In this document: positions 5,816 to 64,000 of the stretch, piece by piece
How positions within the stretch are numbered: the first letter of the stretch is position 1
Layout: the number at the start of each line of letters is the position of its first letter
From: Prevotella denticola
Lineage (GTDB): Bacteria; Bacteroidota; Bacteroidia; Bacteroidales; Bacteroidaceae
Assembly (NCBI RefSeq): GCF_900454835.1
Contig: NZ_UGTM01000002.1
Location: 806,001-870,000 of the forward strand
Length of the DNA stretch: 64,000 bases
Reading direction: 5' to 3'
The notes under the pieces: generated by a model
Databases searched by the model: none
What the model was told of the DNA's origin: nothing
The model's input: the letters and a program-made list of their open reading frames with translations, nothing else
Made by a program: the position numbers and the translations under genes

Positions 5816-6211
5816 ACGATTTGATGTTTATATTGTATTTCCGTAAATTAGAGGGACTGACCGAGACTGCAAAGCGAAAACCTTACATTGCACGGGAAGA
5901 CCCCGCTGCGGACCGTATCCGGATGTCGGACCTACCCTTTAGGGGAACGACGTGCCACCTCCGCACGATGCCGACCGCTGTCTTAACACAGCTGGAAACC
6001 GTCCGCCTATTGCATCTGCATACTTTCAGAAACTTACAGTCCGGCATACGGAACCTTTCCACGGGGTATTCCCCAGACGGCAATCCGCCGATATGCGTGG
6101 TATTCCCAACTATACGGGAACGACATTCCCAGTCGTATGGGAATGATGTTCCCAACGCCTGGGAATCATATTCCCGAACAGCCGGGAATCTTCACAGTGC
6201 AGTTGTCCCGG
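5816..6211. other. Gap between ygiQ and the 6.2-10 kb operon
   Basis: 396 bases without a gene. Its only clear structure is the four-unit palindrome array at 6102-6190, placed just beyond the 3' end of the minus-strand operon that ends at 6212. Frames at 5883-6155 and 6137-6841 run through the array or antisense to real genes and show no protein features. Confidence 0.6.
6102..6190. repeat. 22-23 bp phased TTCCC...GGGAA palindrome array, locus A (4 units)
   Basis: Four imperfect palindromes begin at 6103, 6126, 6149 and 6171 (spacing 23, 23, 22): TTCCCAACTATACGGGAA, TTCCCAGTCGTATGGGAA, TTCCCAACGCCTGGGAA, TTCCCGAACAGCCGGGAA. Arms are conserved, the central bases are not. The same design occurs at 25.1 and 43.2 kb. 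It lies downstream of the gene ending at 6212. Confidence 0.85.
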
Positions 6212-10138: not shown

Positions 10139-10265
10139 TAATTTTGCAGAAAATAAGCTGCGCTCGGCAAAACAGGAGCAGACTCCATTTGCCCTCACTT
10201 GCATTATTTTTGCAGAAAATAAGCTGCGCTCGGCAAAACAGGAGCAGACTCCATTTGCCCTCACA
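10139..10265 (+). repeat. 66-bp tandem duplication carrying -7 boxes, upstream of pfp
   Basis: A block of at least 57 bases starting TTTTGCAGAAAATAAGCTGC at 10142 recurs identically from 10208 (period 66), with a third truncated start at about 10268 (TATTTTTAGCAGAAA). Each copy begins with a match to the Bacteroidota -7 box: TAATTTTG at 10139-10146, TATTTTTG at 10205-10212. The 335-base gap 10000-10334 otherwise holds A+T-rich DNA and the promoter of the leftward gene. The block lies 70-190 bases before the pfp start, so it may provide tandem promoters. Confidence 0.8.
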
Positions 10266-10334
10266 TACATTATTTTTAGCAGAAAGGAACAGACATTAGA
10301 TAATCATTATATTTAACTCATTTAAGGTAAACAA

Positions 10335-12131: not shown

Positions 12132-12240
12132 CATGCGAAAAGGTGCTTAATTGCAATGCAAGTAAGGCTTAGTTAAGGTGCAAGTAAGGCTTAGTTAAGG
12201 TGCAAGTAAGGCTTAGTCGGAATGCAAGTAGGGCTTGGTT
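12132..12240. repeat. 22-bp tandem direct repeat (AACTAAGCC family), locus 1
   Basis: Units with the core GCAAGTAAGGCTTAGTTAAG begin at 12157, 12179, 12201 and 12223, exactly 22 bases apart; a more diverged unit precedes them at about 12132-12153 (ccatgcgaaaaggtgcttaatt on the plus strand). On the minus strand the core reads AACTAAGCCTTACTTGCACC. Relatives of this unit occur at 34008-34095. The rest of the 467-base gap between pfp and the GH25 gene (12241-12445) shows no gene. Confidence 0.85.
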
Positions 12241-12445
12241 ACACTGCTGGTAAATGAATGGTTGCGTTTCAGGTTGTACATGGTTATATCCGCAGATGCG
12301 TTTATAGCATCCACCGGCGATAACAGGACACCCAGGAATCGTTATCGGGAAACAGGTATCTATTCCTATGATGAAAAAACATGAGACTCTCTATCTTCAC
12401 AGATGTCAGACAATAATTTAGATTTAATTTAACAACAGCAAGTAA

Positions 12446-24977: not shown

Positions 24978-25484
24978 TTACCTTAAGCCGCACAGGGAAG
25001 TTCAGGTTAAGGCAGAAGATGAATATCGTCAGCCCAAATGAGCAACAAAACGGTGTCATTCAATGCTGCACTTTGGAATTTCACCCGCTAAAGCAGGCCA
25101 TATTCCCAACGGCCGGGAATCATATTCCCAAACACTTGGGAATCATGTTCCCAAACACCGGGAATATTGTTCCCAAACTGTTGGGAATATCAGCATCCGT
25201 AGTTTAATGGTCTGAATTGACTGCTTTTAATTGTAGCTTAATGCTTCTGCCCGACTGTTTTTCATCTTACTTTAGAATTTGGTTGACGAGTTTGAAAACT
25301 TATTCTAATTGCTGTTGACAGTCTCTTGTTTTAATCATACTTGAAGTCTACACTCATGCTGTTTTAATGTTTCCGGTTACCTCCTTTTTTAATTTCCCAA
25401 AGGGGAAGCCAGACAGGTAAGCCATGTCGGAAGACCATGTACCTGACGGCTGATGAGGGAATCTGCACCGGATCAGCCGACTTC
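24978..25484. other. Gap between converging pgk and rlmH
   Basis: 507 bases with no credible gene. It holds the four-unit palindrome array at 25103-25187. The remaining A+T-rich sequence to 25484 shows no feature I can support. Confidence 0.55.
25103..25187. repeat. 22-23 bp phased TTCCC...GGGAA palindrome array, locus B (4 units)
   Basis: Units begin at 25103, 25125, 25148 and 25170 (spacing 22, 23, 22): TTCCCAACGGCCGGGAA, TTCCCAAACACTTGGGAA, TTCCCAAACACCGGGAA, TTCCCAAACTGTTGGGAA, joined by TCATA, TCATG and TATTG. This is the cleanest of the three loci and sits between two converging genes. Confidence 0.88.
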
Positions 25485-43199: not shown

Positions 43200-43284
43200 T
43201 TCCCAACCGTCTGGGAACAGTGTTCCCAACAGTCGGGACCTCTGTTCCCAATGCCTGGGAATCCCGTTCCCAGACGGTTAGGAA
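43200..43284. repeat. 22-23 bp phased TTCCC...GGGAA palindrome array, locus C (4 units)
   Basis: Units start at 43200, 43223, 43245 and 43267 (spacing 23, 22, 22): TTCCCAACCGTCTGGGAA, TTCCCAACAGTCGGGAC, TTCCCAATGCCTGGGAA, TTCCCAGACGGTTAGGAA. The whole array lies in the 409-base gap (42980-43388) between map and smpB, beyond the smpB stop. The rest of the gap holds the map promoter and no gene. Confidence 0.85.
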
Positions 43285-63525: not shown

Positions 63526-63630
63526 ACTACGCCATTCAACTGAAAGCCAGGAATAAATCTGTAAGGCAGCAGGCAAGACCGACCAAAAGTCAAAACACGA
63601 GTTTAAGCTTACAAAGTCGTCCGTTTGGTG

Positions 63631-64000
63631 GTTGTGAATTGCTTCAAAATGTGTATCTTTGCAGTAGCAAGCACAATTTTCCGTGTATCTGTAAGTATTC
63701 TATTACGTTGTGAATTGCTTCAAAATGTGTATCTTTGCAGTAGCAAGCACAATCTTCGCCTAATAGTAACCCTTTCACGTTTTGTTGTGAATTGCTTCAA
63801 AATGTGTATCTTTGCAGTAGCAAGCACAATTAACCTCTGCGCACGCCCAAAAACAACATCGTTGTGAATTGCTTCAAAATGTGTATCTTTGCAGTAGCAA
63901 GCACAATAGATAGCAGAGTTAAAGCAGGCTACAAAAGGTTGTGAATTACTTCAAAATGTGTATCTTTGCAGTAGCAAGCACAATATTAGAACGCTTTTGG
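63631..64000 (+). CRISPR. Type II-C-like CRISPR array (5 repeats, continues beyond window)
   Basis: Five 47-base repeats start at 63631, 63707, 63784, 63861 and 63938, each opening GTTGTGAATT and ending GTAGCAAGCACAAT; the fifth has one change (G to A at position 11). Spacers are 29, 30, 30 and 30 bases (63678-63706, 63754-63783, 63831-63860, 63908-63937); a fifth begins at 63985. Repeat length and sequence resemble the 47-base repeats of Bacteroidota Cas9 II-C systems (GTTGTG..TTGCTT.CAAA..TATCTTTG). Each repeat contains TTG-19-TATCTTTG, a full promoter, so crRNAs could start inside each repeat. cas genes must lie to the right, outside the window. Confidence 0.95.

Follow-up and report, generated by a model that had tools for sequence, protein, structure and literature searches.

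The genome of Prevotella denticola carries, at some 80 places, arrays of usually four palindromic units (TTCCC-N7/8-GGGAA) that follow one another at 22-23 bp and whose arms are held by purifying selection. In related genomes, arrays of widely differing sequence stand beside one conserved AT-rich tail; the 21-23-bp phase is conserved among them, and the sequence of the array is lineage-specific. We favour, tentatively and a little short of even confidence, the reading that an array serves a putative dimeric host protein as a platform, with usually four symmetric sites and a lineage-specific code, near which the tail has been inserted.

Architecture, number and position of the arrays

In the window, i.e. 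the whole 64-kb stretch of P. denticola DNA that was analysed, arrays had been predicted at three loci, and all three consist of four TTCCC-N7/8-GGGAA units joined by 5-nt linkers, with a total length of 85-86 bp and no strand assigned. Array B (25103..25187) has loops of 7, 8, 7 and 8 nt, and its units start at 25103, 25125, 25148 and 25170, as originally claimed. Array A (6103..6188; loops of 8, 8, 7 and 8 nt; units from 6103, 6126, 6149 and 6171) shows the predicted four-unit design, and its start had been misplaced at 6102. Array C (43200..43284; loops of 8, 7, 7 and 8 nt) contains perfect units at 43200 and 43245, and units with one arm change each at 43223 and 43267. The arrays are real: the pattern TTCCC-N5-9-GGGAA-N4-8-TTCCC matches the plus strand of the window eight times, against a mean of 0.005 and a maximum of 1 in 200 first-order Markov shuffles. 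Elsewhere in the window, a 22-bp tandem repeat of 4.0 copies (AATGCAAGTAAGGCTTAGTTAA, core TAAGGCTTA) at 12155-12241 is perhaps another four-unit array family; a count of further 22-bp arrays outside the TTCCC arrays, made over the P. denticola array loci and the window, gave no excess (2 at lag 22, and 0-3 at other lags). A period-77 repeat of about 4.6 copies at 63630-63984 resembles, in its unit plus spacer length, one end of a long-repeat CRISPR array, and a 66-bp unit is repeated 2.2 times with a 96% match at 10142-10285.

The genome-wide search proposed in the original prediction was run on the P. denticola genome that carries the window (3.17 Mb in three contigs). A pattern of one unit plus a half-unit matched 135 times in the forward and 119 times in the reverse direction, i.e. 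254 times, and the reversed control pattern matched 0 and 0 times. A sequence-only array model built from eight four-unit arrays gave 179 matches on both strands, and at least 80 distinct arrays were parsed from among the matches listed; two further degenerate arrays, one with four units and the other with about four to five, lie outside these 80. Before trimming, the 80 arrays comprised 55 chains of four units, 20 of five, one of six and four of three. A fifth unit with no more than 2 of 10 arm mismatches stands beside the best four in 11 of the 76 longer arrays, against 0.2 expected from control positions, and the count accordingly stands at 65 arrays of four units without a credible fifth, 11 of five (the fifth being mostly degenerate) and four of three; a stricter trimming rule applied to the same arrays gave 74, two and four, respectively. 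The number of units per locus is thus usually four and does not vary freely, and the claim of exactly four is right for the three window arrays and for most arrays of the genome, and wrong for 15 of the 80. The outer units have 8-nt loops in 95 of 148 cases, with the consensus RACCGGTY, and the inner units have 7-nt loops in 110 of 148, the arrays being often outer-inner-inner-outer in unit type.

Gene context was assigned with a home-made ORF caller, by which 48 of the 80 arrays lie between tandem, 11 between divergent and eight between convergent genes, six overlap an ORF call and seven were left unclassified. The nearest-gene ends that face the arrays are 5' in 76 and 3' in 72 of 148 cases, and the location at the 3' ends of genes that had been noted in the window does not extend to the genome. 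In 63 neighbour genes the 5' end faces the array within 350 bp; the 44 that were scanned belong to mixed, unrelated housekeeping families, no Pfam family occurring in more than two of the 44 proteins. Along both replicons the spacing of the arrays is near random, and neither regular spacing nor avoidance of the terminus was seen, arrays being present at 756-793 kb of contig C3 near the skew maximum (origin and terminus were estimated from the GC skew sampled at array loci only). Such near-random positions do not call for an organising role, and count against the platform reading. When loci L292 and L041 are compared, a homology of 95% on one side of the array stops at the other array edge, from which it appears that array edges may also be breakpoints of rearrangements or large insertions.

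Constraint on the arms and symmetry of the units

For 31 of the 80 P. denticola arrays, both flanks could be matched to one array locus of Prevotella multiformis; orthologous pairs were sought only among the fetched array loci, and 28 of the 31 were counted, three falling below the coverage or identity limits. In the 11 well-conserved pairs (flank identity of at least 0.92), identity was 98.4% in the arms (420/427), 93.7% in the loops (295/315), 95.7% in the linkers (155/162) and 93.8% in the near flank of 40 nt (825/880), the arms differing from the near flank at Fisher p = 1.3e-4. In the 17 diverged pairs, the corresponding values were 93.4% (619/663), 74.9% (364/486), 60.2% (150/249) and 78.0% (910/1166), with p = 3e-19 for arms against near flank; here the alignment may favour the arms, a bias to which the well-conserved pairs are less prone. 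Loops and linkers together are equal to the flank in the well-conserved pairs and fare worse than it in the diverged ones. Since arms are much better conserved than loops, linkers and flanks, it is the arms of the TTCCC arrays, and not their loops and linkers, that purifying selection holds, which bears out the earlier observation, made within the window, that the arms are conserved while the loops vary.

That observation had been taken to point to selection either on pairing or on a symmetric protein site. When covariation was checked over the 80 arrays, no compensatory change was seen in the arms, where 138 changes are one-sided and eight two-sided, three of the eight being symmetric. Between the loops and linkers of different units there is no excess of complementarity; they are more alike in direct orientation than shuffled sequences, the direct similarity within one array being 0.60 against 0.46 for inner 7-nt loops, and 0.47 against 0.35 for linkers 1 and 3. 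An excess of symmetry was found only at the loop centre. The innermost mirrored pair is complementary in 77 of the 7-nt loops against 60.3 when shuffled (3 of 1000 shuffles as high) and in 107 of the 8-nt loops against 92.3 (0 shuffles as high), and the second mirrored pair is complementary less often than in shuffled loops. As the bases at the loop centre are adjacent or one apart, they can form no hairpin pair, and their symmetry is of the kind that a symmetric protein site would give. Selection on pairing is therefore not supported, and a two-fold-symmetric protein site appears to fit the arrays better than RNA hairpins do; symmetric sites for a protein, spaced by about two helical turns as the original prediction had proposed for one alternative, would be the best reading of this phased, mostly four-unit family. 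The middle linkers shun self-complementarity (0.12 against 0.34 shuffled), partly since the central one of the five bases can never be complementary to itself; this bias perhaps avoids long perfect palindromes.

One conserved tail beside diverse arrays

The flanks of the P. denticola arrays share little, only 18 of 160 matching any other flank, 13 of them via an AT-rich tail that starts near TGTAGTTTAA / TGTAGTTTAATG (TGTAG) and bears TTGAC-like boxes spaced by about 33 nt. In the window, array B is followed by a 10-nt spacer (25188..25197), a partial first copy of the tail start (CGTAGTTTAATGG..TTGACTGCTTTT) at 25198..25231 on the plus strand, and the tail element itself (TGTAGCTTAATG..., with these TTGAC-like boxes) at 25232..25350 on the plus strand; it scores 83.4 bits with the tail model R2, being itself one of the eight sequences used to build it. 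At E up to 0.001 the model finds 13 places in the P. denticola genome, eight of which built the model, and all 13 are beside an array, with none elsewhere; in four, a partial first copy precedes the full one. The other 67 of the 80 arrays have no detected tail, and arm mismatches per unit are alike with and without it (0.42 and 0.49). Of the 147 flanks without a tail, 28 have TGYAG at a distance of 8-12 nt from the array, compared with 0-3 at seven control distances, and forms with one mismatch are not enriched there (28 against 19-29). The tail begins at an exact point and breaks off at differing places on its far side, a pattern compatible with truncated copying or with solo ends of some longer element. 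No plasmid relatives of the window copy were found, and one 42-nt match of 86% in Parabacteroides was found for a tail copy of the draft genome G002. Rfam 15 gave no match at arrays or tails, either in the whole window at gathering thresholds or at the tail loci of nine relatives at E up to 1. In four genomes (G330, G093, G395 and G134), the far end of the tail lies about 10 bp from the contig end, which suggests that a longer high-copy repeat continues past it. At L353 (G320:C49), a tail copy that lacks a clear palindrome array stands shortly before GTTTCAATCCACGC repeats that look like a CRISPR array.

Among 398 genomes of the genus, strong TTCCC arrays occur in three, namely P. denticola, P. 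multiformis (G148) and G262, the filters being stricter in searches over more than 40 genomes. A scan of named genomes gave, among the matches listed, many TTCCC arrays in Prevotella multiformis DSM 16608, and look-alike arrays in other Bacteroidales and a few other bacteria. From the fetched loci of G148, 65 arrays were parsed under the stricter trimming (50 of four units, eight of three, five of five and two of six); 30 of these 65 have both flanks in the P. denticola DNA compared, which was mostly array loci and the window, and all 30 have an array there. In addition, six viral contigs (L260-L265) carry iteron-like TTCCC/GGGAA arrays, followed in L260 by an AT-rich run, which appear to resemble replication origins.

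The tail is distributed more widely, its model matching 47 of the 398 genomes. Besides P. denticola, G148, G002 and G014, there are 43 such genomes, 26 of which were examined at one tail locus each. When the 110 nt adjoining the TGTAG end were compared with themselves, 21 of these 26 loci repeated at a lag of 21-23 bp with z above 3 (lag 22 in 18 of them), and five (G164, G402, G147, G120 and G320) had no clear lag-22 array; of the control stretches, none of 26 did so at lags 21-23, and one reached z 3.1 at lag 31. Sixteen of the 26 loci are more palindromic than 95% of shuffles. Read by eye, the arrays beside the tails differ widely, including TTACC..GGTAA, TTCCCA-N3-TGGGAA, GTGAC.., TTTTCATGAAAA and more. 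TTCCCA-N3-TGGGAA was found in all eight genomes chosen for it, with 2-19 matches per strand and zero in controls, and in neither the P. denticola genome nor G002. TACC..GGTA gave 96/96 matches against 3/13 for the control in G356, where an array has about six to seven units, 52/50 against 8/9 in G349 and 36/35 against 7/4 in G027; it is weaker in G196, G228 and G028, and barely above the control in G012 (19/16 against 14/13), its background being higher than for TTCCCA-N3-TGGGAA and TTCRTGAA, whose reversed-pattern controls are near zero.

The motif TTCRTGAA at 22 bp is found in G334 (102/111 matches against 2/0), G148 (3/1 against 0/0) and P. denticola (12/11 against 0/0), and in none of seven other genomes. 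Fifteen of the G334 arrays were read, nine having four units, four three and two five. In P. denticola it forms a second family at nine places of contig C3 (22722, 68384, 202018, 225024, 1664091, 1819275, 1852118, 1876920 and 1897390), with five arrays of four units, two of three, one of two and one of five; they often end in GAATTATT/AATAATTC. None of the nine is farther than 256 kb from the estimated origin of the larger replicon, a zone that holds 13 of the 60 TTCCC arrays of that replicon (Fisher p = 9e-6, a difference noticed post hoc), and none was found on the smaller replicon.

The relation between array and tail is best seen in G002. Four of its tails (L138, L140, L142 and L144) are identical over 99 nt, and the loops of the adjoining arrays are only 27-54% identical. 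The arrays lie in either orientation to the tail, the loops of L135 and L138 being 67% identical when flipped and 31% unflipped, and two of eight arrays are far from the full tail, one at 32 nt and the other at 42 nt with a partial tail copy between. From the identical tails, the differing loops and the two orientations, the arrays would be read as older inherited sites and the tails as guided insertions. Two observations speak against this: loop identity between certain G002 arrays reaches 75% (L138 and L146), which fits copying of arrays, and the two arrays just named stand 32 and 42 nt off the full tail. Array and tail look like separate entities, mainly on the evidence of this one draft genome.

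Known systems, rival explanations and a proposed protein platform

The original prediction knew of no described family with these properties, and this is nearly right: no description of such arrays surfaced among the literature results listed, PINSR and BrickBuilt being the nearest kin, and PINSR of Prevotella intermedia (PMC4755523) is a possible relative, likened by its description in the accessible part of that report. As described there, PINSR is a P. intermedia/nigrescens group-specific repeat of 188 bp, intergenic, non-coding and without terminal inverted repeats; it has copy numbers of 177 and 184, with about three-quarters of the sites common to two strains, is linked to rearrangements, and by PCR is confined to the P. 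intermedia clade, with negative results for P. denticola and other clades (PMC4755523). Like PINSR, the P. denticola arrays are intergenic, non-coding and of high copy number (80, six of which overlap the crude ORF call), and 188 bp is the length of array, spacer and tail together; however, the accessible part of the report presents PINSR as one lineage-specific sequence, and mentions neither 22-bp phasing nor palindromes. Judged by description and length, PINSR may be related to arrays plus tail, and is the closest report. BrickBuilt, a MITE of Porphyromonas gingivalis, is described in the accessible part of its report as having 23-nt tandem units with the consensus AGAYCATARTATCCTCTCRTRTG, 1 to 22.8 in number, with terminal inverted repeats and 19 loci (PMC4596501). 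It resembles the arrays in being an intergenic element of Bacteroidales with 23-nt tandem units and a non-repeat leader and tail, as far as that source goes, but differs in unit sequence, unit number and terminal repeats; a common leader or tail with terminal inverted repeats was not found in the flank comparison given above, nor a freely variable number of units in the counts. Nucleoid-occlusion sites (Noc NBS, SlmA SBS) are dozens of dispersed single palindromes per protein that are depleted near the terminus; the arrays are likewise dispersed in dozens, but they are not single sites and are not depleted there. Iteron origins have repeated sites of about 22 bp beside AT-rich DNA, whereas the arrays occur in some 80 chromosomal copies, most of them without the AT-rich tail.

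It is somewhat unlikely, in our judgement, that array and optional tail form a non-autonomous element similar to REP/BIME (for REP elements, see PMC3733652, of which part was accessible), spread by a putative transposase, present in lineage versions and later partly domesticated. The dispersed, intergenic, lineage-specific palindromes in some 80 copies are as expected for such an element, and the TGTAG of the tail recalls the GTAG tag; furthermore, the direct similarity of units within arrays and the loop likeness in G002 suggest copying, the tail is repeated identically at four G002 places, and Y1_Tnp, the RAYT/IS200 domain, is found in 27 of 40 genomes searched, with three matches in G002. 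However, the arrays show regular phasing and mostly four units, orthologous sites persist with arms constrained beyond the flanks, and arrays beside identical tails are not mutual copies. Instead of a GTAG or CGTC tag at each palindrome, TGYAG stands about 10 nt outside the whole array and on some flanks only. The Y1 tyrosine transposase (PF01797) has no match in the complete P. denticola genome, and RAYT was set aside as a candidate; five of 14 control genomes match it too. Unlikely as well is a composite mobile element of the PINSR kind, about 188 bp long (85-88 + ~10 + ~90), whose tails decay while its arrays persist. It would agree with PINSR in length, location, non-coding nature and lack of terminal inverted repeats, as given in the accessible part of PMC4755523, and with the contact of all 13 P. 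denticola tails with an array and the TGYAG excess at 8-12 nt; the like arm mismatches with and without tail are expected if the tail alone decays. Against it stand the identical tails with differing loops, the two orientations of array to tail, and the 67 arrays without a detected tail.

Operators of one transcription regulon would account for the symmetric sites and for the 76 facing 5' ends, but 72 of the 148 facing ends are 3' and the neighbours come from unrelated housekeeping families, which makes this explanation quite improbable. RNA-level elements, either terminators or mRNA-stabilising hairpins, are more improbable still. The folding energy is -7.0 kcal/mol for a TTCCC unit, between -39.9 and -47.4 for the three arrays of the window, -5.6 and -5.7 for units from two other families, and -34.1 for an entire TTCATGAA array, which folds as one long hairpin (all figures without a shuffled control). 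Yet single units of two of the five families folded give only -0.7 and 0 kcal/mol, so that the stacked RNA hairpins envisaged in the original prediction fail as a general rule; moreover, there is neither compensatory change in arms or between units nor a preference for 3' ends, and the 26 nt next to the arrays show no T-rich run in their mean composition. RNA hairpins were rejected as candidates, for a single long hairpin can form from an entire array but its pairs are not conserved, and so were intrinsic terminators, neither the location at gene 3' ends nor a T-run being found. The REP/RAYT, MITE, terminator and nucleoid-occlusion readings are all weakened.

According to the platform reading that we prefer, an array would offer usually four neighbouring two-fold-symmetric sites, 22-23 bp apart on one side of the helix, to a putative sequence-specific dimeric DNA-binding protein encoded by the host, several dimers of which would stack on it, thereby marking or structuring the chromosome at about 80 positions between genes. 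From lineage to lineage, the half-sites would have changed their letters along with the specificity of the protein, giving rise to 'dialects'; the period would have been kept and, in several families, so would the usual site number. The tail would be a small non-coding mobile element with the start TGTAG, whose insertion points lie for the most part 8-12 nt from an array edge; it would probably be steered there by the bound complex and not by the changing DNA letters. Counting against the platform are the five of 26 tail loci without a clear lag-22 array, the six to seven units of G356 and the 15 of 80 arrays that do not have four. A genus-wide extension, in which mostly four-site, 22-bp-phased platforms diverge in code with a putative host protein and the mobile element finds any dialect via the bound protein, is possible and yet doubtful.

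Among related species the architecture (symmetric sites, two helical turns apart, usually four) stays constant and its letters differ, a pattern that is typical of a DNA-binding protein co-evolving with the sites dispersed for it. By analogy, the arrays would work like dispersed operator or nucleoid-site systems, membership in any of which is putative. To our knowledge, chromosome-wide binders of such a kind are little known in the phylum Bacteroidota. The tail provides a sequence handle by which further dialects may be found and, from these, the protein sought by genome comparison, and the arrays could be used directly as baits.
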